Shown: in pieces, positions 31,630-49,070 of the stretch
How positions within the stretch are numbered: the first letter of the stretch is position 1
Layout: the number at the start of each line of letters is the position of its first letter
Assembly (NCBI GenBank): GCA_002256115.1
Contig: NKIK01000008.1
Span: 1 to 64,000, forward strand
DNA: 64,000 nucleotides
DNA from: Burkholderiales bacterium PBB3
GTDB taxonomy: Bacteria; Pseudomonadota; Gammaproteobacteria; Burkholderiales; Burkholderiaceae_C
Reading direction: 5' to 3'
Program-made: the position numbers and the translations under genes
Notes under the pieces: generated by a model
What the model was told of the DNA's origin: nothing
The model's database searches: none
What the model saw: only the letters and a program-made list of their open reading frames with translations

Positions 31630-33258
31630 CTAAAACCGCGCAGCCATGTTGATATGCAACTTATAGTCGCCCGCCTGCGGCAGCCCGGATACAGACTGCA
31701 GCGACACTGCACTGCCCGTGATAACTCGACCATAGTCGGCGCTGAGGCTATAGCTTGAACCTACGTAACGCAGACCCAAGCCAAGACTGGACAGACTATC
31801 GCGCGCAGGCTTCGCGTTGGCGATTGATACATTATTGCCTAGCCAACCAGCATCCACAAACCCAACCAAGCGTAAACCCGTGATCAGCTCGGGCGATGTC
31901 ATCTCAGTGGATACCAGCACGCCACTGTCACCGGCCAAAGGCCTCTCGGTAGTTCCGCGCACAGACGACGCTCCGCCCAGACCGAATTGCTCACCGGAAA
32001 TAAGCGCTTCAGGGCTGTATTGAAACTGACCACGTAAACTCCATAGCCAGCCGCTGGGCAAGCCTGTCGCGTAGTTACCACTACCGCGAAGTGCTTTCCA
32101 ACGCACCGTAGTGACCCGCGGATCCTCCGACTGGTAAGAAGCCAGATTTTCTGCTCCTGCAACCGGCATATTCATGGCCAAGTTAGCGCTAAAACCCCAT
32201 ACGGATGTGTCGGTTTCCATCTTGGCGCTGTAACCAAAAGTCAAAGGCACGCTGCGTCGAACCTCCTGGCCTGCCAACGGCGTGCCGTTGATCTGGGTGA
32301 CATCAAATTGCTTGTCATCCAAGCCAAGCTCTAACGAACCGCGATACCCACCTACAGGTGCCAAGTACTGCGTATAACTGAGACCGAAGGTGCTGCCCGC
32401 CCCGGTACTGTTGAAGGTGCCAAAGTCACCAGCGAGATCTGAGCGGGTTAAATTGGCACCCAGCACACCCCCCAGGCGGTACAAAGGGGCTCTGTAGTTC
32501 AACCCGAACTGCCTCACCGCGCTCGGGCTTTGCAGGGAAGTGGTGTAGGCCGCCGTCAGTTGGTGGTCCATGTCAAATAAATTGGAGTGCCCACCTGCCA
32601 AAGTAAACCGATCTTGCCCGGTCGCCGATGAGCCGGCATTGCTCAAGCTGGCAGCAAAATTCCAGGGGCGAGCCTCCTTCACCACAATTCTTGCGTCAAT
32701 TTTGTCGGCCTCTTCCGACTCTTTCAGAGCAATTTGTACTTTTTTGCCTTGGCTCTCGTTTGCGATGGTGGTCTGAATTGCAAGCGTATTGAAATTCGGT
32801 GCCTGGCCTTCGACCAGTTCGGGCAAGCTGGCCCTGATATTGGCAACGGAGATGCGGTCATTGCCTTCCACCACTACTTTGCCAATCACAAACTTGACGA
32901 TGTTCAGGGTCACCGATTGACCGACTTCTTGGGGTGGCAAAGCAACACGGTGCAATCCGAAACCCTGGTCCTTCAACGCCTGCTCTAGAGCTGCAGTTGC
33001 TTTTTGCAAGGTTTCCAGAGTCGCATCAGCCCGCAGAAAAGGGGCCAAGATCTTGGAAACTTCGCCAGCAGCCAACGGGTTTTCACCGGTGATATCAAAT
33101 CCTTTGATCACGAAAGTGGTGGCCACTGCGTTTGGTGCAGCCGCCGCTGGCACTTGGGCATGGGCCAGCCCGCCCAGGAAACTAAGCGTAAGCGCTGACA
33201 CCAAAAGACGGACTTTCGGGCTTTCTTGCAAGAACTGGGGGTACCGCGTGTTCAACAT
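31630..33258 (-). CDS. TpsB/ShlB/FhaC family outer-membrane transporter (two-partner secretion)
   Basis: A 542-residue outer-membrane protein of the Omp85 superfamily that should secrete the large exoprotein encoded upstream. After a signal peptide (VSALTLSFLGGLAHA) come POTRA-like domains at roughly 40-165 (GFDITGENPLAAGEV; VIGKVVVEGNDRISVANIRA) and then a 16-strand barrel. The barrel has the loop motif FGLGGASSVRGTTERP, whose V-R-G is the family signature, and it ends INMAARF with the usual C-terminal aromatic residue. The ATG at 33258 lies two bases after the fecR stop with AGG upstream, so translation is coupled; an ATG four codons earlier is less likely. Confidence 0.92.
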   Translation of the reverse strand: MLNTRYPQFLQESPKVRLLVSALTLSFLGGLAHAQVPAAAAPNAVATTFVIKGFDITGENPLAAGEVSKILAPFLRADATLETLQKATAALEQALKDQGFGLHRVALPPQEVGQSVTLNIVKFVIGKVVVEGNDRISVANIRASLPELVEGQAPNFNTLAIQTTIANESQGKKVQIALKESEEADKIDARIVVKEARPWNFAASLSNAGSSATGQDRFTLAGGHSNLFDMDHQLTAAYTTSLQSPSAVRQFGLNYRAPLYRLGGVLGANLTRSDLAGDFGTFNSTGAGSTFGLSYTQYLAPVGGYRGSLELGLDDKQFDVTQINGTPLAGQEVRRSVPLTFGYSAKMETDTSVWGFSANLAMNMPVAGAENLASYQSEDPRVTTVRWKALRGSGNYATGLPSGWLWSLRGQFQYSPEALISGEQFGLGGASSVRGTTERPLAGDSGVLVSTEMTSPELITGLRLVGFVDAGWLGNNVSIANAKPARDSLSSLGLGLRYVGSSYSLSADYGRVITGSAVSLQSVSGLPQAGDYKLHINMAARF

Positions 33259-33260
33259 AA

Positions 33261-34631
33261 TTACCTGCATTGGTTGAGGGGTTTGACGCCAGACTCACCC
33301 AGAACGCTCGCCAGCAGAGGGTTCTTACTATTGGGCATTGGGGTTCGATCAAACTCCAAAAACAGAGGTGTGAGCTGCGGGCGTATGGTGTTTCCGTCCA
33401 AGCCAGCAAAACCCGTCTCTCCGCGCCCCAAGTGCAGGGTCTGCGTAGGCGTGGTGACCTCAATATGCCCATCCCGCACAAATACAAAAAGTCCTTCCTG
33501 CGCATCATCGAGCGCGCTGGCAGAAAAGAGCTGTTTGGTGTCCACTTGAACGCTATCAGGGCGTTCGATGCTGTTGATGGTTGGACTCACGAGGGGGGTA
33601 ACTACCGTCGGGCTGACAAACAAACCTTGACCAACGTTCAGAACTTGCACTTCCGTTTTACCGATTTGTGTAACTTCAATCGTACCCAGCCACGTGTAAA
33701 AGTTGCAACCTAGGACTTTGGGGTCTGTACCGCAGTCCAGATCCAATCCGGTGCCACGAATACCTATAGTGGCAGTGTTAGTCGTGAAGCGCACATTGCG
33801 GTTATTGGACTTGCCAATCAGGCCCGTCAATGCGCGCAGTGAGCCACTGAGCAGAGAGACCAAAAACCGGCCATCCTTGGGGTTTTGGTCGTCAAATACA
33901 AAGCTGTCCACGCGAAAGCGAGTACCGGCCCCCAGCGTCAACCGGCTGTCATCGCGAAACGCAATGACGGCCTTGGCACCCATTTTGGTCTCCAGGGTTT
34001 CGCCGGGGTAAACACTGGCACCTGCAGCCATGGCACGGCGCTCCCCACTGGTATCCAGTGCACTCAGCTCGCCTTGCAGGGTTACCACTTTGGCACTGGC
34101 TTGGACAATATTTGCTCGGGCTTTTTCTGGCACTTTGCCAGACTCGGCACGGCAATCTGCGGCACACAAGCGGGCATCAAAATCCGTACCGCGAATTCCG
34201 ATCGTGGCAGTATTGGTAACAACGCGCGCCGAGTTCGTCGAACCCTTGGAAATCAAACCAGTGATTGCGCGGAAGCCTCCTTTGAGTAGTTGCATCACCA
34301 TGCTGTTATCAGGCGCCGACTCCTTAAATCGATATTGTTGAATAACAATGTCAGAGTTGGGTCGCACCGTCATACGGGTGCCATCTTGCAGTTTGATCAC
34401 TGCCGAGGCACCGTCTGCGGTGGTCAGCCGATCACCTTCTTTGAGTGGAAGCCCTTTGCCCAAAGTGCGTGGCGTCTGACCACTGGACTGGGCGAACCCG
34501 ACACCACGTGCGAAATCGACTTCACCCACCGCCTGGGCTCCAGCAGCCGTACAAATAAATACCAAAGCACTGGCCCAGAGAGGCCGCGCACTCAACAGCT
34601 TGGAGGGCCATGCCCGAATCATGGACGACAT
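33261..34631 (-). CDS. Exported protein with two FecR domains
   Basis: A 456-residue protein with a signal peptide (ALVFICTAAGAQA) and two FecR-type domains in tandem, at about 50-160 and 215-330. Each has a LxxGDRLTT- or YPGETLETK-like start and the repeated motif TNTATIGIRGT. The last 120 residues are unassigned and end in Cys-Arg. It is probably periplasmic. FecR domains sense or bind partners in iron signalling, but no sigma factor or TonB receptor is nearby; here the gene lies between a TpsA exoprotein and its TpsB. Its start overlaps the exoprotein stop by 13 bases and AAGGG lies five bases before the ATG. A secretion accessory role is inference. Confidence 0.88.
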   Translation of the reverse strand: MSSMIRAWPSKLLSARPLWASALVFICTAAGAQAVGEVDFARGVGFAQSSGQTPRTLGKGLPLKEGDRLTTADGASAVIKLQDGTRMTVRPNSDIVIQQYRFKESAPDNSMVMQLLKGGFRAITGLISKGSTNSARVVTNTATIGIRGTDFDARLCAADCRAESGKVPEKARANIVQASAKVVTLQGELSALDTSGERRAMAAGASVYPGETLETKMGAKAVIAFRDDSRLTLGAGTRFRVDSFVFDDQNPKDGRFLVSLLSGSLRALTGLIGKSNNRNVRFTTNTATIGIRGTGLDLDCGTDPKVLGCNFYTWLGTIEVTQIGKTEVQVLNVGQGLFVSPTVVTPLVSPTINSIERPDSVQVDTKQLFSASALDDAQEGLFVFVRDGHIEVTTPTQTLHLGRGETGFAGLDGNTIRPQLTPLFLEFDRTPMPNSKNPLLASVLGESGVKPLNQCR

Positions 34632-37600
34632 ACTTGCCCTTCAGAAACAATTAACTCTTTGCTCAGATCGCGATCTTTCTCTTTGTCCTTGGTGCTCAGG
34701 CTCTCCAACTGACTCCCCGACCGATCCACCGCCAGGTCTGACGCAGTAGTCATCAGCGCGACCACAAGATCAGCAGCAGAATTCGAAGATGTCGAAGAGC
34801 GCGGTGGTGTAACCGCCAAAGAGTTCACTTGGTAGGAGACCGGTTGATACCCTGAAGTTGCATTGGGTCCGAGTGTAAGTGTGCCACCGGCTGCTGCACT
34901 CACACCCAGCGGGGCGAGTACTGAAGAGTTTTGTGTGAGATTATTGGCGGCGGTCACGACCACCGCACCCGCTTTGGACTCAATCGGACCATTCAATGTA
35001 ATGTTGCCCGCACTGGTGAGATTGGTCGCAACCAATGCAATGTCTCCACCCGCAGCAATACCGGCGGCTCCAATCGATAAAGGGCTGTTGGCCTTCAAAC
35101 TCACTTTGGCACCGGGGCTCGATGCACTGATCAACCCTTGATCCAAACTCGTGATGCCACCAGTGTTGGTTATCTTGATATTGCCTCCAGTGTTGATGAT
35201 TCCGGAGGTAGTTAACACTCCTTCATTCACCAACTCAATATCGCCAGCGCCTGTGTTTTCAGCGTTGAAAGACGACAATCGATTTCCCGTAGAAGGAAGT
35301 AGCGTTCCGGCAGTAGACTTTGTGGTCAATGCCGCCTGCTGAATGGCCCCCGTCTGACGAATAGCACCACTCTGCGCCGTGAGCGTCACTACGGGCGAGG
35401 TGATATTACCTACAACAATGTCACCACTAGCGCGAGTCACCTCTACGCTGGCCGCAATCAAGTTGCCAGATGTTTGATCAAAGTTGCCGGTAACTCTAAA
35501 TGCCCCTGGCGTACTAACAGTGCCACCAGACTGTGCGTAGCCAGCAGTGGTAATGGCTCCTGCCACTTGCAAAGAACCACCTTCCACGACCAAACTGCCT
35601 CCCAAGTTAAAGCTTTGAAGCGTCACGTTACCCGCACCTGCATTTAAAGTTACCCGACTGGTGTTAGTAGGAAAAACGACACTACGTACGTTGGCCCCTT
35701 CTGGCACCACATCCCAATTCTTTGGGTCGCTCCATAGGTCGCCCGCAGCTCCCAACCAGTTTGAACTTTCTCGCACCGCGATGTCGGCGGTAGTTACAGT
35801 TTCTCCAATGAAGGTGTAGTTCCTAGCGTCGGCACCATTTAGGCCCAGCCCAGTAATCAACACCTTCTTAGCGACACCGGCGTTCTTATCCGAAAACTCA
35901 GCCTTGAGATCAGTTGTAGCCACTGCATCTCCAGCTATCAAACCATTCAGGACGAGCTTGGTAGAGTCAATAGTGGCATCAGTCTTGCCGTCATACGTCT
36001 TATTCAAAGCGCTCACCCCACTAACCACCAAACTCTTAGGATTAATGGTTGCCGTGGCATTCACATTAGTCACCCCAAGTGTGTAGTTCTGGGCATCTGA
36101 ACCTGAAAGTGACAAGCCGGACACACTTACAGGTTTATTGACACCTACGTTTTTGTCCAAAAAGCTACCCACAGTTGGTGCCAAGGCAATACTGTCCCCA
36201 GGCACTGCCCCTGACAACACACCGCCAAGTAGAGTCGCACTGGTAGTTCCGTCATAAACCTTGTCAGCAGCGGTCAATGTGCTTACCCCAAGTGCTAGAG
36301 GTGTAATGTTTGCGACCGCAGAGGTAGAACTAGCGCCCAAACTGTAATTGCGAGCGTCGGCACCACCCAAAACCAATCCGTTCAAAACCACGGGCTTACT
36401 ATTTCCCACGTTCTTGTCTAAAAATGCGCCGGAAAGGGCACCGATCGAAACACTGTCTCCGGCTATCGCACCTAAGAGGTTACCTCCCGATATCGTCGCA
36501 GTCGTCGTGCCGTCATACACCTTGTTGGCTGCAGTGACAGTCCCCACCGACAAAGTCTTGGCAGTGATGTTTGCTGTAGCCGTCGTGCTCACCGACCCAA
36601 GGCTGTAGTTGCCCGCATCGGCCCCACCCAGCAACATGCCTCCTAGCGCGATGGTGTAGGTGCCCACGTTTTTGCTGGCAAAGCTGCCCGTCGGGGCACT
36701 TAAGGTTACCTTGTCACCGCTTATCTCACCCGAGAGCACTCCACCCGATAACGTGGCCGTCGTCGTGGCGTCGTAGACTTTGTTGGCCGCCGTCACCGCG
36801 CTCACACTCAAGGCCTTGGCTGTGATGTCAGCTTGCGCTGTCGCACTATTGGTGCTCAATACATAGTTGCCCGCATCCGTACCCGTCAACGCCAATCCAT
36901 TAACGGTGACCACTTTGGCGGTCCCCACTGCTTTGTCCGCAAAGCTTGCCGTCACCGGGCTCAGCCCTACCGTATCGCCACCAATCGCCCCCGTCAGAGC
37001 ACCTCCCGATACCGACGCTGCCGCCGTGCCGTCATACACCTTGTTCGAGGCTGTGAATGTGCCTGCGCTTATCGTCTTGGCAGTGATGTCCGCTGTCGCA
37101 GTCGCACTGGAGCTGCTCAGCGTGTAGTTGCCCGCATCCGCTCCACCCAAGCTAAATCCACTGAGCGTGACAACCTTGCCCGTGCCTACGTTCTTGCTGT
37201 CAAAGGTGCCTATACCCCCGGTCACCGTCAAAACATCACCAACCAGTTTTCCACCAAAAATAGTGTCAGTTGTGGACACCGTGGCGCTTGAAGTGCGGTC
37301 GTAAGTCTTACTGGATGCCTTAATGCCTGTGACTGAAGAAATGGATGCTGGCGTGATTGAAAGAAGCGCCGCGCCCAAATTCAATGTGTAGTTGCTTGCT
37401 AGGCCGGTACCGTCTGCCAACGCCAGCGTGCCCAAAGTTACGGGCTTGTTGCTTCCCACATTCTTGTCAGTCATCGTGCCACTGCCGCTCAGACCCAGTG
37501 TTTCGCTATTGACTAAACCAGTCAGAGAAAACAGTGTTGCCCCGACAATATTAGTACCGTCGTAAACCCTCGTGCCTGCTGGGCTGATACTGGCAACAGC

Positions 37601-40600
37601 CAGTGCTGGCGTCACTTGGCCAATATTGCCAGTAAACTCACCAACTGCATAACCAAACACCGGTTTACCTTCGCCAAAGGTGATGCCCGACACAGTCATT
37701 CCAGAAGCGGTGACGCTCTTTGCGGTCCCTACATTCTGAGCGTTAGTACCCAAACTCGCGGATCCGCCGGATAGAACGGCAGCGCTCAAATTGTCTGCAC
37801 TGTAACGCACATCGACCGAAAATACCGGAAACGTGGCGCCCGCCAACCCTATGTTTAACCCACCGTCGTAGACCTTGGAAACGGCACCCCCCAATGAGCC
37901 CGACAGAACAGGAGCATCCGAAAAAATTCGACCGTTTCCGGTACCTGATGGTGTTGCACCAAAAGCTAAGTTGTATTGCTTGAAGGCCGCTCCAGTATCA
38001 GGAAACATCGCAAAGTTGTGATATTGTGACACTTGCGAATAAGTTCTCCAACTTCCACCATTGAGCGCTACAAAGCCACCAGATGTTGAAATTGTCCCAA
38101 TATCTGCCCCGACCAATAGGCTTTCCCCTCCAGCCGTTAGGTTTTTCCCTTCATTGACCGCGAGGCTCGCGTATGTCAGGTTCACCCCAGTTCCTCCGCG
38201 CAGACTCATGGCGGCTGCCGATGTAATTACACCTTCTCCAACATTTAGAAAAGCTTCCGACTGGAGTATTACCCCGCCTGTAGTAGTTTCAATGGTGGAA
38301 TTTGAGACATCAATATCCCCAGTTGCTACTAGTTTGAAGCTGCCAGCGGTCGATGTTTCATATGAGTTTAAGTACACGGATCCAGAGCTAAAAATATCAA
38401 CTGCTCCAATGCTGGTTGTGCTCAACCCCCACAAAAGATTTCCAGAATTCTTCAAGGTAATGTCGCCTGCACCAGAGTTCAGTGTGATGGAAGAATACTC
38501 TCCAATCTCAATCGCACCGGTCTGTGAAATTGCCCCTCCTTGGGTGTTAACTTCCAAACTACCTGAAGTGCTAAATGCCCCAAAGCTGCGCGCACCGTCA
38601 ATGGTGAGAACAGACACGCCTTCGCCATATGCCACAGTGCCAATAATACTGTTGACTTTGTTGGACGAGTTGGTCAGTGAGAAATCACTCCCAAGAGCCA
38701 ACTGCAAAACGTTCGCTTTGACTGCTCCCACTCCACCGTTGTCGTTCACACCTCCGTAGGTGTTCTCAAGGCTCAGAGTACCGGTGGCCTCGACTGTGCC
38801 ACCAATGTAGAGAGTTCCACTTTGTGCTTTTAAAAAAATGTCTTTACCTTTGATACCACCAGAGGGTGTTTCAAACCCGGCATTGCCATATAACGTGATG
38901 TTCGCTGTTCCAGTGTCCAATGCAGTAGCAGGGAGGCAAAGCCCCCCTCCGGACTTCAACGAGAGTTCTTTATTCACGCCGGTCTGAACAATAGTGACCA
39001 CATCCAAATTACTGGAGGCCTCAACCTTAATCACGCCGCCGGTAAGTTCCAACGTTCCATTGAAATCATTCAATGTTTGAACTAGGTTGATATCTCCTGT
39101 TCCAGCATCAATATTCGCAGAGCCAGTGGCTTGAACATGACCTGCTGTTTGCGCAATGGCTGAGCCCTCAGTCTTCAATGTCAAGGTGCCCAATGCATGA
39201 ACAGAGGCACTGAGCGAAATGCCGTTGGCAGCTTCAATACGAACGTCACTATTAGAAGAGGTAACCCCATCTACTCCGCCGATTACCACACTACCCGTGG
39301 TTCTCAAGTCAATGTAAGCGTATGCAGCGGCTTTTGTTACGGTGGAGGCTGCTGCACTATTCCTGAAAGAAACATATCCACCATAGCCACCGGTACCAGT
39401 ACTGTTCAAAGAAATGTTACCGGAGACCAAGTTTCCAGGCTGAGACAAATCAATATTGGAAGGGGCACTTACGGTAAGACCACCAGCGGCAATGTTGGCC
39501 CCTTGTGCTTGGTAAATAGACGCCCCGAAACCCGAAGTGGTCAGCGAAACGATGCCTGAACCGGCGTTTACTGCGCCATTGAGAGTAACGGTGCCACCCG
39601 CCGTTGCAGTGAAATTTCCGCCGTTGGTTGTGATCGCGCCAACCGAAACACCGCCTGAGCTTGCGCTAAGCGTGACGTCTAACTTTCCTGATCCAGATGA
39701 CGTGATATTCGCCGCAGAACCAGCGATATTGCCGTATGCCGTAGAACGCAAAGTCAATGATCTGTCCCCACTGCCTAAGTAATTGATTGGCGCATTAATG
39801 GCAATTCCATTCTCCGCTTCCAATACAACGCTACCGAGCCCCAATTGGGTTTGAACTGCACCTGCGGAAATAATGCTCGTAGTGGTGTAAGGGACGGTCA
39901 GCGTCAAGGCATTCAAATCCAAGCCACCCGCATCCCCATTGATGTCGGGATTGGAAGCTTGAATGGTTAAATTCGCAGGGTCTAAGTACAAGGCTCCCGA
40001 GTCTCCGCGTACCGCGGACAAATCTACACCCCCTCTAAACTCAAGATAGGATTTGCCGGACACTTCAACTTTGCCACCTCGCCCACCAATTGGTCCTCCT
40101 TTAGCGCTGACCAGTCCATCGAAGCGAGTGGCTCCATCGGCCCACACCACGGCCTTGCCGGCATCGCCAAGTTCGGTCGCATCTACTTTGATGGTGGCTC
40201 CGGGAGATACCAAGGTGACTTGGGCATTGGTCAACCGAGCATCTTTTCCTTGCCATCCTCCGCCCACCAAAACTTCACCCTCACCTTTAGGTGCGCTGGC
40301 ATCTAACACGGCAGTGTTCTTCAACCATACCTTGTCGGCAGTGACTTGAATCTCACCACCCAATCCCCGATTCGCAGCCGCGGCCACAGAACCAGAGACC
40401 TCCGCCAAATCTTTGGCCTTTAGAACGACTTTGCCACCATCAAGCTTCACGGCTTGCGCGTGAATTTGACCACTGTGTTTCAAGGTGCCCGCGAAAATTC
40501 CTACTGCATCACCTTTGAGAGACCCTAAATTAACCGCAGTGTTGGCACCTGCCTGGACATCAAAACTGATACCCTCCAAGCCCCTGGAGCTTATAGATAG

Positions 40601-41341
40601 CGCGGAACCAGCTACCAAAATCGTAGCACCATTGGGTGCCTGAACCAACGCGTCCTTGCCTACTTCTGCGTTGCTCCCCACAAGTACTACGTCCCCACTG
40701 CGCGCCAACACAGAGCCAGCCACGGTGACCTTGCCGCCAGCCGAGCTCTTGTCACCAAAGCGTAGCTTCCCGCCCAATGCGTCGGCGTCACTCATCTGCA
40801 GGCTTGAAGCCGTAAAACCAGCGGTATCCACCACTGCACCCGCACCAACCGCAATACCCGCTTGGTTCACTAATACGAGATTTCCGTTGCTGCCCAATGT
40901 GCCAAACAACTGGCTCGGAGTGTTGGTTACGACCCGATTAATAGAGGTGCTGGTCGCGCTGGGTTGCTGGAAGTAAGTGGTGCTACCTTGTGGAATGGAG
41001 AAACTTTGCCAGTTGATGACAGAGTGGTTGGTTCCCGCAGCGTTCTGTGTCGTAACTAACAGGTTGTTTCCAGTTGAGGCCATTGTTGCTTGCCCGGCAA
41101 CCACTACACCCCCGGTGGGATTCGCAATTGCGTGTAGCGGTACCCCACCCAACGCCAAGGCAAGACTCATTGACAGCGCTTTGAGCCCAAAACTACCACC
41201 GACAGTGCTTGCAGCGGCCGATATATTTGCACCCCTAGGATGCCCTCCCGCCGTGCCAATTTCCGGAACCGCCACCATCGCGCCCAGCGCCTGATTCCAG
41301 ACCGTACGGTATATGTGATTGAGTGAAGAGTGACTCGACAT
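34619..41341 (-). CDS. Large TpsA-type exoprotein with YDG/MBG repeats (filamentous haemagglutinin-like adhesin)
   Basis: A 2240-residue two-partner-secretion protein. It begins with an extended signal peptide region (NHIYRTVWNQALGAMVAVPE, residues 8-27) and a hydrophobic signal core (MSLALALGGVPLHAIA, about 58-73). The TPS haemagglutination-activity domain follows (about 75-330), with NHSVINWQSFSI and LFGTLGSNGNLVLVNQAG. Long beta-helix-like sequence continues to about 1150, then eight YDG repeats of 80-95 residues (about 1150-1860), and a final beta-helical part with a charged end, KDKEKDRDLSKEL. AGGGGA lies eight bases before the ATG. It should be secreted through the TpsB encoded two genes downstream and serve in adhesion or biofilm. 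The coding sequence looks more AT-rich than its neighbours. Confidence 0.92.
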   Translation of the reverse strand: MSSHSSLNHIYRTVWNQALGAMVAVPEIGTAGGHPRGANISAAASTVGGSFGLKALSMSLALALGGVPLHAIANPTGGVVVAGQATMASTGNNLLVTTQNAAGTNHSVINWQSFSIPQGSTTYFQQPSATSTSINRVVTNTPSQLFGTLGSNGNLVLVNQAGIAVGAGAVVDTAGFTASSLQMSDADALGGKLRFGDKSSAGGKVTVAGSVLARSGDVVLVGSNAEVGKDALVQAPNGATILVAGSALSISSRGLEGISFDVQAGANTAVNLGSLKGDAVGIFAGTLKHSGQIHAQAVKLDGGKVVLKAKDLAEVSGSVAAAANRGLGGEIQVTADKVWLKNTAVLDASAPKGEGEVLVGGGWQGKDARLTNAQVTLVSPGATIKVDATELGDAGKAVVWADGATRFDGLVSAKGGPIGGRGGKVEVSGKSYLEFRGGVDLSAVRGDSGALYLDPANLTIQASNPDINGDAGGLDLNALTLTVPYTTTSIISAGAVQTQLGLGSVVLEAENGIAINAPINYLGSGDRSLTLRSTAYGNIAGSAANITSSGSGKLDVTLSASSGGVSVGAITTNGGNFTATAGGTVTLNGAVNAGSGIVSLTTSGFGASIYQAQGANIAAGGLTVSAPSNIDLSQPGNLVSGNISLNSTGTGGYGGYVSFRNSAAASTVTKAAAYAYIDLRTTGSVVIGGVDGVTSSNSDVRIEAANGISLSASVHALGTLTLKTEGSAIAQTAGHVQATGSANIDAGTGDINLVQTLNDFNGTLELTGGVIKVEASSNLDVVTIVQTGVNKELSLKSGGGLCLPATALDTGTANITLYGNAGFETPSGGIKGKDIFLKAQSGTLYIGGTVEATGTLSLENTYGGVNDNGGVGAVKANVLQLALGSDFSLTNSSNKVNSIIGTVAYGEGVSVLTIDGARSFGAFSTSGSLEVNTQGGAISQTGAIEIGEYSSITLNSGAGDITLKNSGNLLWGLSTTSIGAVDIFSSGSVYLNSYETSTAGSFKLVATGDIDVSNSTIETTTGGVILQSEAFLNVGEGVITSAAAMSLRGGTGVNLTYASLAVNEGKNLTAGGESLLVGADIGTISTSGGFVALNGGSWRTYSQVSQYHNFAMFPDTGAAFKQYNLAFGATPSGTGNGRIFSDAPVLSGSLGGAVSKVYDGGLNIGLAGATFPVFSVDVRYSADNLSAAVLSGGSASLGTNAQNVGTAKSVTASGMTVSGITFGEGKPVFGYAVGEFTGNIGQVTPALAVASISPAGTRVYDGTNIVGATLFSLTGLVNSETLGLSGSGTMTDKNVGSNKPVTLGTLALADGTGLASNYTLNLGAALLSITPASISSVTGIKASSKTYDRTSSATVSTTDTIFGGKLVGDVLTVTGGIGTFDSKNVGTGKVVTLSGFSLGGADAGNYTLSSSSATATADITAKTISAGTFTASNKVYDGTAAASVSGGALTGAIGGDTVGLSPVTASFADKAVGTAKVVTVNGLALTGTDAGNYVLSTNSATAQADITAKALSVSAVTAANKVYDATTTATLSGGVLSGEISGDKVTLSAPTGSFASKNVGTYTIALGGMLLGGADAGNYSLGSVSTTATANITAKTLSVGTVTAANKVYDGTTTATISGGNLLGAIAGDSVSIGALSGAFLDKNVGNSKPVVLNGLVLGGADARNYSLGASSTSAVANITPLALGVSTLTAADKVYDGTTSATLLGGVLSGAVPGDSIALAPTVGSFLDKNVGVNKPVSVSGLSLSGSDAQNYTLGVTNVNATATINPKSLVVSGVSALNKTYDGKTDATIDSTKLVLNGLIAGDAVATTDLKAEFSDKNAGVAKKVLITGLGLNGADARNYTFIGETVTTADIAVRESSNWLGAAGDLWSDPKNWDVVPEGANVRSVVFPTNTSRVTLNAGAGNVTLQSFNLGGSLVVEGGSLQVAGAITTAGYAQSGGTVSTPGAFRVTGNFDQTSGNLIAASVEVTRASGDIVVGNITSPVVTLTAQSGAIRQTGAIQQAALTTKSTAGTLLPSTGNRLSSFNAENTGAGDIELVNEGVLTTSGIINTGGNIKITNTGGITSLDQGLISASSPGAKVSLKANSPLSIGAAGIAAGGDIALVATNLTSAGNITLNGPIESKAGAVVVTAANNLTQNSSVLAPLGVSAAAGGTLTLGPNATSGYQPVSYQVNSLAVTPPRSSTSSNSAADLVVALMTTASDLAVDRSGSQLESLSTKDKEKDRDLSKELIVSEGQVCRP
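35775..37885 (-). repeat. Eight tandem YDG/MBG repeats within the exoprotein
   Basis: Translated on the minus strand, the motif K-V-Y-D-G (or K-T-Y-D, R-V-Y-D-G) recurs eight times, spaced by about 80-95 codons. Each unit carries DKNVG-like, G-x-D-A-x-N-Y and A-x-I-T-x-K segments. The middle units (third to seventh) are most alike, which suggests duplication within the gene. Confidence 0.85.
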
Positions 41342-41366
41342 GGTGGTAATCCCCTAACTAACGGTT

Positions 41367-41379
41367 CCCGGCAATACCG
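41367..41379. promoter_or_regulatory. Short inverted repeat upstream of the exoprotein gene
   Basis: CCGGCAATACCGG has CCGG arms around a five-base centre and lies 26 bases before the exoprotein ATG. It may be chance, an operator half-site, or a leader hairpin. Confidence 0.25.
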
Positions 41380-41477
41380 GCTTTTGGCGCGCCACTATGT
41401 TGTATTGTTATCAAAGTGTGGCTCCGCCAATCATGGATGCCAAACGATTCGGCAGTGCAGCAATTACAGCACAAGCT

Positions 41478-42677
41478 TCAATTCAAGAGTCGGTTTATGA
41501 CATTGTGTATGTGGCAACTTCTGTCAATTTTGGGTAAAAGTGCACATTGGCCTGCCATGGCAAGTGATCGCTCCTTCAGCGTCTTACTATTTATCATTTC
41601 TTTCACTTCCGACGCATAGTCCGGTTGGTCCTGGTATGCCAACACTGCGCAACCCTGCTCATGAAGGCGCAAACCGACAAATAACTGCTCTTGATGCATA
41701 GGGACAATTAACTGTGGCACACCCGACTGCAGGAAATGCGCCACGGTATTGTGACTGCCGTTCGAGATCACCACATCTGCTTGTTGCGCCACCAGCCGCA
41801 AGTCCAACAGATCATCAAGAAACTTCAAACAATCGCCTGTGTAGGCATTGCGTAATTCACCGGGGAGTCCTCGAATGTAGAGCAAGGCGCATACACTTGA
41901 GGCCTGCAACGCTTGCAATAGCATTTCCAAGCTTGGGAATACGTTCAAATAGCCAAACACCTTGGGCCCCTCTGAACATGGCCAAACAGGAGCACTTGCA
42001 GCGGCCATAACCTCCACCCCAAGGTAGTGCGAATGCCGGGGCCCGAAATGGTCGAGCTCAGGCCGCGTCATTAAGAGTTGATCGTCGGCTTGACCATAAA
42101 GGTCAGACAAGCTTCCCATTGAAGAACTGCCGCAACGCTGCAGGGCCGTATTGATGATCTTTAGAACCAACTGATCGTCGCTAGCAAGCAAGGCCAGGTT
42201 TTCCGGGGTACGCGGTGTGGTGATGAATATTGCAAAGGGAGAATCTGGTCGGCTCGGTAGCGGTGGAATCGAAAACCCGGTACCCACCAGGAGTTTTTTA
42301 AACCCATACCCGAAACTAGCGACCAATGCAGTGGGGGCGTGCTCATAAACCACCAGTTCTGGTTCTATCAGGTTAAACAATCCTCGCCACGCGCAAATGT
42401 ACATCTCTAACTCTGCAGTCGTGGAAAAACATTGCCTGAACAGAATATGCGTCATGCTGAAGTAAGCGCTCTGGTCGGCAAAAACTTGCGACTGCTTGAA
42501 CGGAGCCTGGAGACAGACGATTGGTAAATTGCCAAACACAGTGGGAATACCCTGCAGCTCTCGCGCCACCAAAAAAACTTCATGCCCCTGCTCTATTGCC
42601 GCTTGAATGGGGCTTCTGAGATGGCTCAGGTGGCCTAGATTGGAGCCTTGCTCCCATATGAACATTACACGGGCCAA
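41478..42677 (-). CDS. GT-B glycosyltransferase, MGT/UGT-like
   Basis: A 399-residue protein with the two-domain GT-B layout of UDP-sugar glycosyltransferases (GT1/MGT-like). The N-terminal half has MFIWEQGSNLGHLSHLRS, a glycine-rich acceptor-side loop with an early histidine. The C-terminal half has ADVVISNGSHNTVAHFLQ and GVPQLIVPMHQEQ, the donor-binding segment. The usual HGG of that segment reads NGS here, so donor use may differ. It starts with TTG at 42677, supported by GAGGAG five bases upstream; an ATG four codons later is the alternative. It lies 136 bases upstream of the exoprotein on the same strand. Modification of the adhesin or of a surface glycan is possible but unproven. Confidence 0.85.
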   Translation of the reverse strand: MARVMFIWEQGSNLGHLSHLRSPIQAAIEQGHEVFLVARELQGIPTVFGNLPIVCLQAPFKQSQVFADQSAYFSMTHILFRQCFSTTAELEMYICAWRGLFNLIEPELVVYEHAPTALVASFGYGFKKLLVGTGFSIPPLPSRPDSPFAIFITTPRTPENLALLASDDQLVLKIINTALQRCGSSSMGSLSDLYGQADDQLLMTRPELDHFGPRHSHYLGVEVMAAASAPVWPCSEGPKVFGYLNVFPSLEMLLQALQASSVCALLYIRGLPGELRNAYTGDCLKFLDDLLDLRLVAQQADVVISNGSHNTVAHFLQSGVPQLIVPMHQEQLFVGLRLHEQGCAVLAYQDQPDYASEVKEMINSKTLKERSLAMAGQCALLPKIDRSCHIHNVINRLLN

Positions 42678-42776
42678 AATTTCTCCTCAAAACCAAAAAC
42701 GGATAGACCTCAACTGTTCAAAATTGCGATCCACCATTCTCGCTTGGGTACACTGACTGCGTAGCTAAACTTACTC

Positions 42777-44126
42777 ATGGGCAACACTGGCAAAACACTT
42801 CTTGACTGGCCGCACCAGGCACCTATCGGCGCGGTCCACACGCTGGCTGACGCGCATTTTGTGCTGGGCCTGGAGCTCGGTCCCTCCGAATGGTGGCAAA
42901 TCTGGCAGAAACAACGGCTCGCTGAGCTACTACAGTGGCTAAATCAGCATGTGTGGTGGAAGGCGAATTCTGAGGAAACTCGAAATAATCAAGGCAATGT
43001 AAACCAGAGCGAATTTCAGTTAGCTGACCTCCCAATCATGCGACGGGAATATTTTCGCGCACTCGTGGAATCCCATACCGCAGTAGTTCCGTCGGAACAT
43101 GGCAATCTGCACAGCTCCCAGACCTCTGGGTCCGTCGGGATTCCGGCTAGATTTCATAGGTCTGAACTGTCAAACCGAATAGGTCTTAGTCATTACTGGG
43201 CCGACAACTTTCGCCAAGGTCGCGACATGTCGGCTTGCATGGCTACCATTACTGGCCTGCCTGGTCCGCACGAGGGCACACACCGACTGATTGCGGCAGA
43301 TGAATGGTTGCACCCCAGCGAACAGTTGGGCCGCAATTCGACCCAGTTTTCGATTCTGGAGCATGCCAAATGGCTCTGTGAGATGGCACCCACTTATTGG
43401 AGTACCACACCGGCCACCTTGTCAGCAGTGATCTCAGTCATCAAACTCAAAGGCCTCACTGCCCCTCGCATTTCCCAAATCATGACCATGGCACACGTCG
43501 TCGAACCCGCCTTGCGGGAGCGCGCACGTAAGGTTTTTGGAGGAGCCAGCATTCGGGACCGCTATTCTTGTGAAGAAGTAGGACCTATCGCCTTTCAGTG
43601 TCCAGAAAGTGATGATTATTACCATGTTGCAGTGGCCAATGTGATCGTTGAGATCGTTGACGATGCTGGTATGCCCACCACTGAGGGCACTTCTGGCAAT
43701 GTCTTGGTCACAGGCCTACACCAATGGGCTAGCCCCGCCATTCGCTATGACCTGGGCGACATCGCCACCGGCCACAGCCATTGCCCCGGCTGTGGCGCTA
43801 CCGTACCCGCGCTGAGCAAGCTGCTGGGTCGCAAGTATTTTTTGGTCAACGAAGGCTCGGGATCGGTACGCCATGTGCGGCTGTTGGCTGAGCATTGGCT
43901 CGCATGCGGGCCGGTGCGCGAACACCGCGTCGTGCAAACCGGGCTTCAAAGTTTTCGGATCGAAGTCGTCATGGACCATGCCATGACCCCTAGCGAAGGC
44001 CTGGCCATGCAAGCCATGTTGAAACGCGTGGTGGGGTCCGAATTCACATTCGGACTCATGCAACTGGAAGCCATATCCTGGCCTGCCGGTGCCAAACGTC
44101 AAGAGTTTGTGGGGTTAGTGCCATGA
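42777..44126 (+). CDS. PaaK/CapK-like adenylate-forming enzyme
   Basis: A 449-residue protein of the phenylacetate-CoA ligase-like (PaaK/CapK) branch of adenylating enzymes. The phosphate-binding loop is SSQTSGSVGIPARFHRSE, the A5-like segment is RYSCEEVGPIAFQCP, and AIRYDLGDIA is the A7-like motif. A C-P-G-C-G pair follows, then the LLGRKYFLVNEG hinge and a C-terminal domain of about 100 residues. It should activate a carboxylate with ATP, perhaps onto CoA; the substrate is unknown. It diverges from the glycosyltransferase across 99 bases and overlaps the next, paralogous gene by four bases. Confidence 0.82.
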   Translation: MGNTGKTLLDWPHQAPIGAVHTLADAHFVLGLELGPSEWWQIWQKQRLAELLQWLNQHVWWKANSEETRNNQGNVNQSEFQLADLPIMRREYFRALVESHTAVVPSEHGNLHSSQTSGSVGIPARFHRSELSNRIGLSHYWADNFRQGRDMSACMATITGLPGPHEGTHRLIAADEWLHPSEQLGRNSTQFSILEHAKWLCEMAPTYWSTTPATLSAVISVIKLKGLTAPRISQIMTMAHVVEPALRERARKVFGGASIRDRYSCEEVGPIAFQCPESDDYYHVAVANVIVEIVDDAGMPTTEGTSGNVLVTGLHQWASPAIRYDLGDIATGHSHCPGCGATVPALSKLLGRKYFLVNEGSGSVRHVRLLAEHWLACGPVREHRVVQTGLQSFRIEVVMDHAMTPSEGLAMQAMLKRVVGSEFTFGLMQLEAISWPAGAKRQEFVGLVP

Positions 44127-45139
44127 GTTGGCCCTCGGAATTACCCGGAAACAGTGTGCAACGGGCCGTCAACGCGCACGCCCACTTAACGCTAGAGCGC
44201 AGCGGCAGCGCCGCCATTGCAGCCTGGCAAGCACAACGTTTGAGTGAGCTGGTTCAATGGCTCTTAAAGCATGTGCCTTGGTGGCGTGATCGCTTGGGGC
44301 TGCGGTTTAACTTGCACGACTGGTCTAGCGTACCTGTGCTGAGCCGCTATACCTTGCGCAACATGGTGGCAACCCGTGGGTCGGCCGCAGTGCCAGACCA
44401 CCACGGAGCGGTTACGCCTTTCTTTCTGGCCGGTCCACCGGGTTCACCAGCGCGATTTTTTACAACGGCTTTCAGTCAGATTCTGGTAGACCACGCTTTT
44501 TATGCGGACCACCGACGCCAAGGGCGCAACCCTTATGCCATCCAAGCCTGCATATCAGAGGATATTCCCCCCCATGATGGCACCCACATTGCAATTGCCG
44601 CATCCTTGGAAACCGGCACCGGGATGCAGGCATTGCGGGCGCATGGCCAATTCACCAAAGCCGAGCATTTGCAGTGGCTTAGCAGTGTGCGGCCCGCTTT
44701 TTTAACCACCACACCTGCATGGTTAGAGGTGGCATTGGATGCCGCCCAAAAACAGGGCTTACCGCTGGCTGAAGTACGGCAAATTTTGACCTACGGTGCT
44801 ACGGTGCCCGCAAGCCTGCGCAGCAAAGCGCGCCAGCAACTCGGGGCCAGCGTGCGCCACCGCTATACCTGCCTGGAGTGCGGGCCTTTGGCGTTTCAAT
44901 GCCCGCGCAGTGATGATCACTTTCATGTGGCCGTGGGCAATGCCATGCTGGAAATCGTGAACGATGAGGGCAAGTTGATGCCAGAAGGTGTACGGGGCCG
45001 CGTGCTGGTCACGGCGCTGCACCAATACGCAACCCCCCTACTGCGTTATGACGTGGGAGATAGCGCCGCACAGCACGCACAGTGCGCAGGGTGCGGACTC
45101 GCCGTGCCCACCTTATCGCACTTGGTGCAAAACGAGTAA
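44123..45139 (+). CDS. PaaK/CapK-like paralogue lacking the C-terminal domain
   Basis: A 338-residue close paralogue of the upstream gene, sharing HVPWW near the start, RHRYTCLECGPLAFQCP, HFHVAVGNAMLEIVND, LRYDVGDSA and the C-A-G-C-G pair. Two differences matter. The phosphate-binding loop reads FFLAGPPGSPARFF, without the Ser/Thr-Ser-Gly core. The protein also ends LSHLVQNE exactly at the hinge, so the whole C-terminal catalytic subdomain is missing. The stop lies 19 bases from the convergent oxidoreductase, leaving no room for the lost part. It may be an inactive partner of the first protein or a decaying copy. Its start overlaps the upstream stop by four bases. Confidence 0.78.
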   Translation: MSWPSELPGNSVQRAVNAHAHLTLERSGSAAIAAWQAQRLSELVQWLLKHVPWWRDRLGLRFNLHDWSSVPVLSRYTLRNMVATRGSAAVPDHHGAVTPFFLAGPPGSPARFFTTAFSQILVDHAFYADHRRQGRNPYAIQACISEDIPPHDGTHIAIAASLETGTGMQALRAHGQFTKAEHLQWLSSVRPAFLTTTPAWLEVALDAAQKQGLPLAEVRQILTYGATVPASLRSKARQQLGASVRHRYTCLECGPLAFQCPRSDDHFHVAVGNAMLEIVNDEGKLMPEGVRGRVLVTALHQYATPLLRYDVGDSAAQHAQCAGCGLAVPTLSHLVQNE

Positions 45140-45158: not shown

Positions 45159-48100
45159 CTACACCAGCACGCGCTCTATGCCACCCGCATTGGCGATTTG
45201 CACATACTCTGGCAGCCACTCTTTGCCCAGAATTTGGTTGGCCATTTCGACGACGATGTAGTCGGCTTCCAGCAGACCAGTTTTCAAATCGTCCTGGTAG
45301 CGGTTCAGGCCCATCAGGCAACTTGGGCATGAGGTCAATACTTTGACATTCTGCTCCGCGCTGACGGCACCTGAATCTCGCAGCGCAGCCTCACCCGCAC
45401 GTATTTCCTCTTCCTTGCGAAAGCGTATCTGCGTCGAGATATCGGGGCGTGACGATGCCAGACCACCGCTCTCACCGCAGCAGCGTTTGCTCTCCAGCAC
45501 ACCATCACCTAACAGCGCGGTGACGGTTTTCATGGGGGCCTGCAGCTTCATGGGGCTGTGGCAAGGGTCGTGGTACAGGTAGCCACCACCACCCTTGTCG
45601 CCCAGGGTGATGCCCTTCTCCAACAAATACTCGTGAATATCCACAATCCGGCAGCCGGGGAAAATCTTGTCGAACTCGTAGCCCTGCAACTGGTCGTAGC
45701 AGGTACCGCAGCTCACCACCACCGTCTTGATGTCCAGGTAGTTCAGCGTGTTGGCCACGCGGTGGAACAGCACCCGGTTGTCGGTGATGATCTTCTCGGC
45801 CTTGTCACCCTGACCGCTGCCACGCTGCGGATAGCCACAGCACAGATAGCCCGGTGGCAACACCGTTTGCACACCCACGTGCCACAGCATGGCCTGGGTC
45901 GCCAGACCCACCTGGCTGAACAGGCGCTCGGAGCCACAACCAGGAAAGTAAAACACCGCCTCGGTGTCAGCCGTCGTGGTCTGCGGGTTGCGGATTATGG
46001 GAACGTAGTCTTTGTCTTCAATGTCCAACAAAGCACGCGCCGAGCGCTTGGGCAAATTGCCGGGCATTTTTTTGTTGATGAAGTGAATGACCTGCTCTTT
46101 GATCGATGCCGTGCCCACCGTGGCCGGTGGCGCAGACGTTTGCTTGCGCGCCATGACGCTGAGCACCCGATTCCCAAGGCGCTGCGCCTTGAAGCTCAAG
46201 GCCGTAGCAGTGCGCGCCAAGGCGATGGCGTTCGGGCTGGCGGTGCCAATAAACCACGACTGAAACTCCGCCGCCGGGCGGAAGGACTTCTTGCCCATCT
46301 TGCGCAACAGATTGCGCATATTCATGGTCACGTCGCCAAAGTCGATCTTGACCGGGCACGGCGACTCACACTTGTGGCAGACCGTGCAGTGGTCGGCCAC
46401 GTCTTCAAACTCTTCCCAATGGCGGATGCTGATGCCACGGCGCGTTTGTTCTTCGTACAAAAACGCTTCGATTAACAACGAAGTCGCCAGAATCTTGTTA
46501 CGTGGGCTGTAGAGCAAATTGGCACGCGGCACATGCGTGGTGCACACCGGCTTGCACTTGCCGCAGCGCAGGCAATCCTTGATCGAATCGGCAATCGCGC
46601 CAATATCGCTCTGCTGCATGATCAGCGACTCATGGCCCATCAGGCCGAAAGACGGCGTGTAGGCATTGCTCAAATCCGATTTCATAGTCAAATCGGCCTC
46701 AAACCCCCGTGGATTGTGCGGGAGCAGCTCCTGATTTCGTAGCAACTTGCCTTTGTTAAAACGACCTTCCGGATCGATGCGGGCTTTGTAGTCGGTAAAC
46801 GGCTTCAGCTCCGCGTCGGTCAAGAACTCCATCTTGGTGATGCCAATGCCGTGCTCGCCCGAGATCACGCCGTCCAGGCTACGCGCCAGCACCATGATGC
46901 GTTTGACCGCACCGTGCGCGGCCTGCAGCATGTCGTAGTCATCGCTGTTGACGGGGATATTGGTGTGCACATTGCCGTCACCGGCGTGCATGTGCAGCGC
47001 AATCCAGACGCGGCCCTTCAGCACCCGCTGGTGAATCGCCGTGCACTCTTTCAAAATCGCTTCAAACGCTCCACCGGTAAAGATGTCTTGCAACGGCGCG
47101 CGCACCTGCGTCTTCCAGCTCGCGCGCAACGTGTGGTCTTGCAATTGCGGGAACAGTGGCTCCACATCATCCAGCCAGCCCTGCCACTGGGCGCGCACGC
47201 TTTGCACCAGGACAATGGCTTGCGACACCCGGTCTTCCAGCAGCTCGGCTGCAGGCACATCGTTGGCATCGTCCATCTTGCCCAGCGGCAAATTGCCCTG
47301 CTGCAGAAACTCGATCAGCGCATCACACAGCGCCAGCTTGTTTTGCAAGCTCAGTTCGATATTGATGCGCTCAATACCGTCGGTGTACTCGGCCATGCGC
47401 GGCAGCGGAATCACCACGTCTTCATTGATCTTGAAAGCGTTGGTGTGTTTGCTGATGGCAGCCGTCTTCTTGCGGTCCAGCCAGAATTTCTTGCGCGCCT
47501 CCGGGCTGATAGCGATAAAGCCTTCGCCGCTGCGCGAATTGGCAATGCGCACCACTTCGCTGGTCGCGCGGGCCACATCGTCGGCGTTATCACCGGCAAT
47601 GTCGCCCACCAGCACCATCTTGGGCAGGCCGCCGCGCTTGCTCTTGGTGGCGTAGCCCACGGCCTTCAGGTAGCGGTCATCCAGGTGCTCCAAGCCCGCC
47701 AGCAGCACGCCAGTGCGCTTTTGCTCCGCGAACATAAAGTCTTTGATCTCGACAATGCTGGGCACCGCGTTGCGCGCGTGACCAAAGAACTCCAGGCACA
47801 CCGTGCGTGTGTGTTGCGGCATCTTGTGCACCACCCAGCGTGCGCTGGTGATCAGGCCATCGGTACCCTCTTTTTGAATGCCGGGCAGGCCGCTCAAAAA
47901 CTTGTCGGTCACGTCCTTGCCCAGGCCTTCTTTGCGGAAGGTTTTGCCGGGAATGTCCAGCCGCTCCTTGCGGATCGGCGTCTTGCCGTCGGCCTTGAAA
48001 TACTGCAGTTCAAAGCTGGCCATCTCCACATCATGGATCTTGCCCATGTTGTGGTTGATGCGGGTCACTTCCAGCCATTCGGCCTGCGGTGTCACCATGC

Positions 48101-49070
48101 GCCAGCTTGCCAGGTTGTCCAGCGCCGTGCCCCACAGCACGGCCTTTTTACCACCTGCATTCATGGCGATATTGCCGCCAATGCAAGAGGCTTCGGCCGA
48201 AGTGGGGTCCACCGCAAACACATAGCCCGCGCGCTCGGCCGCATCGGCCACGCGCTGGGTCACCACCCCGGCTTCCGACCAGACGGTGCCTACGGCGCTG
48301 CTCAGGCCGGGCAGGACTTTCATCTCCACCTCGGTCATGGCTTCCAGCTTTTCGGTGTTGATGACCGCGCTCTTCCAGGTCAGCGGGATGGCACCACCGG
48401 TGTAGCCCGTGCCGCCCCCACGCGGAATGATGGTCAGGCCCATGTCAATACAGCCCTTGACCAGACCCGCCATTTCTTCCTCTGAATCCGGGCACAGCAC
48501 CACAAAGGGGTATTCCACGCGCCAGTCGGTTGCGTCGGTCACATGGCTTACACGGCTCAGGCCGTCAAACTTCACGTTGTCTTTGGCGGTCAGCTTGTAA
48601 AGCAGCTTTTGCGTTTTCTTGCGCAAGTCCGCCATGGCGGCAAACGACACATCAAAAGCGCTCACGGCCCGGCGCGCTGCGCCCAGCAGGGTCACCACCA
48701 TGCCATCACGCTCGGGGTCGGCCTGCGGCGTACGGCGTTTTTCGACCTCGCCCAAACGGTGATTCAGCGCGTCCACCAGCAGGCGGCGGCGCTTGGGGTT
48801 GTCCAGCAGGTCGTCCTGCAAATAGGGGTTGCGCTGCACCACCCAGATATCGCCCAGCACCTCGTACAACATGCGGGCCGAACGGCCCGTGCGACGCTCT
48901 CCGCGCAGTTGGTTCAGCAAATCCCAAGACGAATCGCCCAACAGGCGAATGACAATTTCGCGGTCTGAGAACGAGGTGTAGTTGTAGGGAATTTCACGGA
49001 TGCGCTCATGCACATGCGGCTGCGTGCCGGGGGCCAGCAGGAGATGGTTAAGCGAGGTGGGTGCGTTCAT
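45159..49070 (-). CDS. Giant FAD-binding oxidoreductase with iron-sulfur and CCG domains (D-lactate dehydrogenase-like)
   Basis: A 1303-residue fusion. An N-terminal DUF3683-like region (1-165) is followed by the FAD-binding type 4 domain (about 175-420, [16 protein letters not shown] and [14 protein letters not shown]). Next comes the FAD-oxidase C-terminal domain, with [15 protein letters not shown] and [13 protein letters not shown] two-cluster 4Fe-4S segment ([23 protein letters not shown]) and two cysteine-rich CCG domains ([22 protein letters not shown]) complete it. This is the layout of D-lactate or other 2-hydroxyacid dehydrogenases that feed the respiratory chain, joined to a GlpC-like subunit. 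The electron donor is not certain. A family-1 repeat is translated in frame at 46690-46747, in the linker before the iron-sulfur segment. Confidence 0.9.
46690..46747 (+). repeat. Dispersed repeat family 1, copy C, inside a coding region
   Basis: It contains CGGCCTCAAACCCCCGTGGA, TTGTGCGGGAGCAGCTCCTG and TTTCGTAGCAACTT. It lies wholly within the 1303-residue oxidoreductase gene and is read on the opposite strand as [18 protein letters not shown]. Confidence 0.75.

Follow-up and report, generated by a model that had tools for sequence, protein, structure and literature searches.

The 64,000-nucleotide (nt) stretch of DNA analysed here, referred to as the window, is from contig NKIK01000008.1 of Burkholderiales bacterium PBB3 (forward strand, with its numbering used throughout), and includes a six-gene locus that may well encode a two-partner (type Vb) secretion system extended by a conserved third component. 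The core is formed by three genes on the reverse strand, which encode a TpsA exoprotein (34619..41341, 2240 amino acids (aa)), a companion protein with two FecR domains (33261..34631, 456 aa) and the outer-membrane exporter TpsB (31630..33270, 546 aa). TpsA and the FecR companion each carry a cysteine at the extreme C-terminus, Cys2238 and Cys455, respectively. On the other side of TpsA lie a glycosyltransferase (GT) gene and two genes for PaaK-like enzymes, Pk1 and Pk2. The best explanation of the data, given about an even chance of being right, is that the FecR companion anchors TpsA through a disulfide between the two tails, that the FecR-TpsB pair also serves TpsA proteins encoded at a distance, and that the genes beside TpsA form a cassette for its decoration.

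The list of open reading frames (ORFs) gives overlaps of 13 nt between the FecR and TpsA genes, 10 nt between TpsB and FecR, and 4 nt between Pk1 and Pk2. Together with Pfam, this list confirmed the six genes, their order, strands and overlaps as placed in a preliminary description of the window, and the identities proposed there for the TpsA-type exoprotein, the double-FecR protein and TpsB were borne out by Pfam. TpsA includes ESPR, TPS, three DUF5649 and eight YDG domains, and its TPS domain (PF05860, 1.5e-23) is that of a type Vb exoprotein. Likewise, TpsB is a type Vb exporter, with a ShlB barrel (PF03865, 1e-29) and a POTRA_2 domain (PF08479, 5.9e-7). The solved chains closest to TpsA are EtpA (E 1.4e-53) and HMW1 (E 8.9e-44).

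The FecR companion matches the Pfam FecR model in two stretches (5.5e-21) and the NCBIfam retention module NF033682 at 54.4 bits, above the cut-off of 50. Its N-terminus, judged by reading, resembles a Sec signal. No tblastn match to it was found on plasmids. The preliminary description recorded this gene in the operon and treated it as one among others, whereas the evidence makes the FecR protein a core part of the system, which had been overlooked.

FecR domains are familiar chiefly from regulators of the FecR type, and the anti-sigma regulators among them have a cytoplasmic anti-sigma domain ahead of the FecR domain and an adjacent sigma factor gene. It is very improbable that the companion is a signalling protein of this kind, i.e. 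an anti-sigma-type sensor of the export status of TpsA. Only FecR is above the Pfam cut-off in the protein, no sigma factor gene was found in the six-gene unit by the ORF list and Pfam scan, and NCBIfam groups the protein with retention modules. A point on the other side is a paper on cell-surface signalling in P. aeruginosa (PMC2729926), which, in the portion available, names both FecR and two-partner secretion.

Cysteine residues at the ends of TpsA and FecR

Genes in the comparison loci were picked as ORFs for this work and do not follow annotation; genomes, contigs and loci are denoted by G, C and L numbers. A cysteine no more than four residues from the end was found in 31 of 31 TpsA proteins with an intact C-terminus and a score above 170 bits to the TpsA of the window, as compared with 0.31 expected by composition. 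In 29 of the 31, that of the window included, it is the only cysteine within the last 60 residues. The terminal cysteine (again within four residues) is likewise present in all 26 FecR proteins, in which C156 and C160 are also invariant. The mature FecR protein has five cysteines in 25 of the 26, and as this number is odd, one would remain unpaired if the others pair internally. In copies from the genus, all six TpsA ends and all eight FecR ends that are complete carry the terminal cysteine.

A TpsA was regarded as complete if its C-terminus was intact, with L120 and L123 cut N-terminally by the contig end. The count of TpsA tails leaves out the C-terminally cut L152, L158, L163 and L164, as well as three proteins below 170 bits, namely L075 and L165, without a terminal cysteine, and L151, with one. 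The FecR counts leave out L142 (cut) and L143 (truncated, ending in cysteine), and for the genus and other families L313 and L304, respectively (both cut). L086 and L314 apparently represent a single contig of 5,709 bases, and L061 and L085 likewise seem to share one; both contigs were counted once.

The search of other families covered 369 genomes of the same class, 13 of which had a match besides that of the window, and the companion is present in nine other families. Among the complete FecR homologs found, 14 of 15 have a cysteine in the last five residues. A long ORF with no match to TpsB runs into FecR in six loci, and it ends in cysteine (within four residues) in five; these ORFs probably encode TpsA, whose TPS domains would lie outside the fetched stretches. 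A 247-aa ORF ahead of FecR in L298, where TpsA is downstream, is without a terminal cysteine.

Other TPS proteins of the same genomes served as controls. Of 67 TPS matches, 16 stretches were hand-chosen among those not yet fetched, and four without a stop were set aside to leave 12 complete proteins. A terminal cysteine is present in one of the 12 (Fisher p 2e-9 versus 31 of 31), and in 2 of 15 when L075, L165 and L151 are added. Among three weak complete FecR matches, two are without the cysteine, and the one that has it lies near a weak TPS match. In the window, both cysteine codons overlap the start codon of the next gene; however, an artefact of such overlaps was rejected, as no gene starts at the cysteine codon in 27 of 36 TpsA and 29 of 33 FecR genes, which retain the cysteine all the same.

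In the explanation preferred here, TpsB would be the pore, TpsA the surface fibre and the double-FecR protein a soluble periplasmic companion. TpsA would leave the cell N-terminus first, with its last residues staying on the periplasmic side, where its single terminal cysteine could form a disulfide with that of FecR. The remaining four cysteines of the mature FecR protein could pair within its two FecR domains. FecR would then be a plug too bulky for the pore, holding the fibre on the cell as the equivalent, encoded by its own gene, of the module that is fused to LapA-type adhesins for their retention. An intermolecular disulfide is proposed because a loop of the HMW1 type is impossible with one cysteine and because FecR has a matching cysteine and resembles a retention module.

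Several observations weigh against this explanation. In other families, the FecR homolog in L301 and the upstream ORF in L304 are without a terminal cysteine. Conversely, the control TPS protein in L280 ends in cysteine, as does TpsA in L151, where it is accompanied by a TpsB of its own. The number of residues after the cysteine sometimes differs between TpsA and FecR of the same genome. Moreover, each terminal cysteine could bond with its like, giving TpsA-TpsA or FecR-FecR pairs, or serve as a sorting signal. The structural data on FecR give no help either: a model from the single sequence had a predicted local distance difference test (pLDDT) value of only 32 and was unusable, and the sole match to a solved structure, 5ix9, was not significant (E 0.19).

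One alternative is that TpsA anchors itself or dimerises by its own terminal cysteine, with FecR doing likewise separately or acting as a chaperone. Such anchors are described for HMW1, in which two cysteines among the final 20 residues form the disulfide that holds it (PMC3983070), and for CdrA, which uses a cysteine hook (PMC7616799). However, HMW1, according to the same source, requires two cysteines ten residues apart, so the lone cysteine of 29 TpsA proteins would permit no loop. Self-anchoring also has to contend with the terminal cysteine of FecR, and it is considered unlikely.

A second alternative starts from the residues around the cysteine, as the commonest ones in TpsA and FecR tails alike read [QV]-C-[RK]. 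This could be a C-terminal tag on both proteins, read by TpsB or by an unknown processing or attaching enzyme, with no bond between TpsA and FecR. The cysteine is also kept in TpsA genes distant from FecR, as the tag would have it. Such a tag is nevertheless improbable, since the TpsB of the window and the mature TpsB in 33 of 35 aligned sequences lack any cysteine, no gene in the locus was noticed as a candidate for such processing, and four of the five mature FecR cysteines make two likely pairs that leave the terminal one free.

The locus resembles the HMW1/HMW2 and EtpA systems in the structural affinity of TpsA noted above, in a glycosyltransferase gene that adjoins TpsA, and in a C-terminal cysteine that may anchor. 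It differs from HMW1, which has two terminal cysteines, in having one, and therefore not two within the last 20 residues, and also in the FecR companion and the variable cassette. The retention module of LapA-type adhesins is fused to an adhesin secreted by a type I system and is cleaved by a LapG-type protease. The FecR protein matches this module family, as described above, but is a separate 456-aa protein in a type Vb operon. CdrA/CdrB, as far as the source at hand describes it, is likewise a two-partner adhesin anchored by C-terminal cysteine chemistry, but no companion with a matching cysteine is described there.

Extra genes in two-partner operons are known from the bcpO and cdiC loci (PMC5422565, in the part available). 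One of the extra proteins there is predicted to be a periplasmic lipoprotein or a cytoplasmic protein, and the other is an acyltransferase; FecR is mentioned 0 times in that review. Similarly, among the titles and beginnings of abstracts retrieved, none described a FecR-type companion or a decoration cassette for two-partner systems. The retention of two-partner adhesins on the cell is understood in a few cases, and those in the literature consulted use cysteines within the adhesin itself. A conserved companion with a matching cysteine would be a different and more general solution, and FecR-domain proteins, otherwise named after regulators, would thereby acquire a function.

FecR-TpsB pairs and distant TpsA genes

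When 200 genomes of the family were searched, full-length double-FecR proteins were recovered along with numerous weaker matches, and neighbourhoods were viewed for the FecR matches of 25 genomes. TpsA is in the operon on the same strand in nine of the 25, and beside the pair on the opposite strand in G001 and G117; for G083 and G173 the presence of TpsA in cis was left undecided. In a further 12, a flavin adenine dinucleotide (FAD)-oxidase gene is followed by FecR and TpsB without an adjacent TpsA, and mostly then by GBBH-like and UbiE genes as in the window. The oxidase, GBBH-like and UbiE genes are conserved borders and are placed outside the system. In the window, all three are on the reverse strand, with the FAD-oxidase/iron-sulfur gene (45159..49070; Pfam FAD_binding_4, FAD-oxidase_C, CCG and Fer4_8) on one side, and the GBBH-like_N (31183-31596) and UbiE (30368-31099) genes, both assigned by Pfam, on the TpsB side.

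All 12 genomes without a local TpsA have TPS proteins elsewhere, with one TPS match apiece in G113, G006 and G012, and a TpsA of the subfamily was fetched in each of the 12. These remote genes occupy 13 loci, where they stand alone or in rows of up to four, and neither TpsB nor FecR was seen in the fetched flanks of any of the 13. TPS proteins with their own TpsB (L151, L164 and L165) match the TpsA of the window less well, at 99-196 bits. The FecR-TpsB pair is therefore likely to be a shared export station acting in trans, which would also serve TpsA proteins encoded elsewhere, as the pair sits at a fixed chromosomal place. A single exporter serving more than one TpsA is known (PMC5422565, in the part available). 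A fixed FecR-TpsB locus with unlinked TpsA genes, if confirmed, would explain orphan exoproteins. This conclusion is weakened by the limited downstream flank in 4 of the 13 loci, due to a contig end in L152 and L158 and to fewer than 600 bases in L150 and L156.

A uracil-DNA-glycosylase gene precedes TpsA in five of nine loci scanned for the upstream neighbour, and subfamily TpsA genes were seen behind such a gene in L148, L153, L154, L158, L159 and L160. The genome of the window encodes a second TPS protein (G000:C73:9603-10364, L075) of 2,033 aa without a terminal cysteine, and neither TpsB nor FecR of the window was matched within the 20 kb fetched around it. One FecR match lies within an open frame of 24,372 residues (G109:C185:72021-72380), and in L140 (G121) and L293 (G665) the big ORF after FecR is presumably a protein resembling CHASE2-type sensors.

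The glycosyltransferase and its neighbouring genes

The GT gene (41478..42677, reverse strand, 399 aa) is upstream of TpsA, with 136 nt between its end and TpsA, and begins with a TTG codon preceded by GAGGAGA. Pk1 (42777..44126, forward strand, 449 aa) is divergent from GT, with 99 nt between them, and is followed by Pk2 (44123..45139, forward strand, 338 aa). In 200 genomes of the family, a single GT ortholog was found besides that of the window (G110, 54%), and in 399 family genomes the same two were found at ortholog level, while whatever followed them was weaker by 130 orders of magnitude. Four GT loci, the G110 contig among them, came from scanning genome contigs, and 61 genomes of the genus gave seven, including that of the window. 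The total is ten distinct ortholog loci.

The FAD-oxidase gene is on one side of GT in 10 of the 10 loci, directly or behind cassette genes, and TpsA is on the other side in nine. The tenth locus, in G803, is on a contig that seems to be identical with L086 and stops before the position of TpsA, and a TpsA end with FecR and TpsB is found on a different contig of this genome (L309). The linkage of glycosyltransferase and exoprotein proposed in the preliminary description thus holds, and GT travels with the exoprotein. Among the 61 genus genomes, six have GT and FecR, one GT alone, four FecR alone, and 50 neither (Fisher p 2.5e-5, or 1.3e-4 without the genome of the window; both are a guide only, as the genomes are related, kinship is uncorrected and many are incomplete). 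In the genome with GT alone, G820, TpsA is beside GT and the contig ends inside TpsA.

GT has only weak C-terminal matches in Pfam, e.g. EryCIII-like_C at 22.4 bits (cut-off 31.7). Modelling with five orthologs (mean pLDDT 66.4) gave a GT-B fold like that of natural-product enzymes of family GT1, and the top results of a fold search were CalG3 (E 1.4e-15, template modelling (TM) score about 0.55), CalG1 and VinC, with E values of 1e-15 to 4e-15. This agrees with the GT-B, GT1-like assignment made previously. The HMW1 and EtpA systems use a GT41 enzyme, HMW1C/EtpC. Homology of GT to HMW1C/GT41 was rejected, as Pfam gave no GT41 match in eight scanned proteins. Enrichment of N-X-S/T sequons in TpsA was rejected too (32, versus 29.3 +/- 4.7 in shuffles). 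The earlier idea of a system analogous to HMW1 though different stands for the tie between a GT1-fold glycosyltransferase and the exoprotein, and the likeness of GT to HMW1C goes no further than analogy. GT41 (PF13844) matches in the genome of the window are confined to contig C59 (G000:C59:50678-54775, L146), where two open frames of 702 and 663 aa are present.

The other genes at this position change from locus to locus while GT is constant, and together with it would form a variable decoration cassette. In the window the companion is the PaaK-like pair, and G820 has TpsA, GT, Pk1 and Pk2 in the same order. In G811, a sulfotransferase-family gene, an unmatched ORF, a tetratricopeptide repeat (TPR) protein gene and an adenosine phosphosulfate (APS) kinase gene lie between GT and TpsA on the opposite strand; the match of the TPR protein to heptosyltransferases is barely above cut-off. 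The G803 cassette includes two glycosyltransferase-2-type genes and an epimerase/dehydratase gene, and in L087 and L088 a gene for a PemK/MazF-type toxin lies behind a short ORF without a match. In G110, G779, G774 and G807, GT was seen alone between the oxidase gene and TpsA.

The PaaK pair was not seen beside the other eight GT orthologs, one of them on an incomplete contig, and PaaK relatives in the four genomes behind L085-L088 are weak only (best 2e-11). The closest relatives outside the genus, in G105 (47% and 44%), have no match to the other proteins of the window within about 7-9 kb. The suggestion that all six genes are conserved together as one constant unit was accordingly rejected by comparison of the ortholog loci. 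The link between the PaaK-like genes and the exoprotein was upheld weakly, by G820 and against the eight other orthologs and the relatives in G105. Overall, the interpretation in the preliminary description is partly supported.

AMP-binding (Pfam) matches are weak, at 28.8 bits for Pk1, just under the cut-off of 29.9, and 38.0 for Pk2. Scores are far below cut-off with both the DVU_1553 model (79.3 and 82.8 bits, respectively; cut-off 300) and PaaK TIGR02155 (22.9 and 22.6; cut-off 646.3). The P-loop and C-terminal lysine are both known to have roles in PaaK-type enzymes. In the alignment, the glycine-rich loop of Pk1 is intact as TSGSVGIPA and its C-terminal domain is present, with a lysine close to the end. 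Pk2 has LAGPPGSPA at the position of the loop and stops ahead of the C-terminal domain, a loss that the preliminary description did not mention. Both proteins have the same features in G820. Identity between the window and G820 is 64% for Pk2 and 56% for Pk1, with nonsynonymous divergence (dN) of 0.278 and 0.413, respectively, and saturated synonymous divergence (dS). A decaying Pk2 pseudogene was rejected, as Pk2 of G820 has the same truncation and P-loop loss. Pk2 is probably a retained, catalytically impaired pseudoenzyme partner of Pk1.

In the proposed system, the exchangeable cassette between the oxidase gene and TpsA would modify TpsA before export, with the constant GT acting alongside variable companions. 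For the pair in the window, this would mean carboxylate activation by Pk1, with Pk2 as its non-catalytic partner. The preliminary description suggested that such activation may add a non-sugar group, and one of the two enzymes looks inactive. Certain observations are at odds with this. TpsA is found at the site without GT in G061 and G129, and G797 and G813 have TpsA-FecR with no GT in the genome at E 1e-20. As some TpsA loci are without GT, it is not needed for export, and the dependence between the two is one-sided. Furthermore, GT1-fold enzymes act mostly on small molecules, and GT may therefore make a glycolipid or metabolite.

A related possibility, less probable than decoration of TpsA and still a serious one, is that GT and the cassette are unrelated cargo at an insertion hotspot extending from the oxidase gene to FecR, and modify lipopolysaccharide, capsule or a small molecule. 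The variable content includes toxin-antitoxin-type genes, such as the two Xre/RES pairs, PIN and Phd/YefM-like (below cut-off) genes among the adhesin, GT, PaaK and oxidase genes in G820 (L320, G820:C137), and the GT1 natural-product fold and the G105 PaaK relatives lying apart from the other genes also suit cargo. G+C is lower in GT (0.509) and TpsA (0.527) than further out (0.584 and 0.606), although it does not single out the cassette because it is also low (0.54-0.55) in the TpsB, FecR, GBBH-like and UbiE genes. However, cargo would not explain why GT is constant while the others vary, with TpsA next to it in nine loci, or why a distant GT homolog adjoins another TpsA-FecR-TpsB operon (G277).

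The broadest form of the proposal is doubtful. In it, the FecR plug would be joined by disulfide to any of several adhesins, remote ones included, and decoration would be swapped by cassette around a new kind of protein glycosyltransferase. The modifications would then be glycosyl with adenylate-activated acyl groups, glycosyl with sulfate, or glycosyl with further sugars. The cassette would offer a natural experiment in adhesin modification by an enzyme other than GT41.

Relatives of the glycosyltransferase at other loci

In the wider GT family, type I secretion, repeats-in-toxin (RTX) or TPS genes are within 6 kb in 9 of 42 loci, versus 1 of 20 displaced control regions on the same contigs, a difference short of significance (Fisher p 0.15). 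Such secretion neighbours are missing from most of the 42 loci, and a clade of 18 rows has none at all. In G277, the distant homolog is convergent with the TpsA-FecR-TpsB operon mentioned above. In the most informative case, G284 (C3, ~88.8-111.9 kb; L214 and L215), genes for a GT homolog, a type I ATP-binding cassette (ABC) protein, HlyD, a giant RTX protein (3126 + 737 aa, on two adjacent stretches), a radical S-adenosylmethionine (SAM) protein and a PaaK-like protein are on one strand; GT and PaaK-like genes here accompany a giant exported protein of another secretion system. These arrangements hint that the wider family may act on exported polypeptides, which is not established.

Surroundings with radical SAM/YcaO genes or C39-peptidase exporters are typical of modified exported peptides. 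One GT homolog is beside radical SAM and YcaO genes in L080 (G096), and others are near C39-peptidase ABC exporter and HlyD-like genes in L065 (G139) and L241 (G039).

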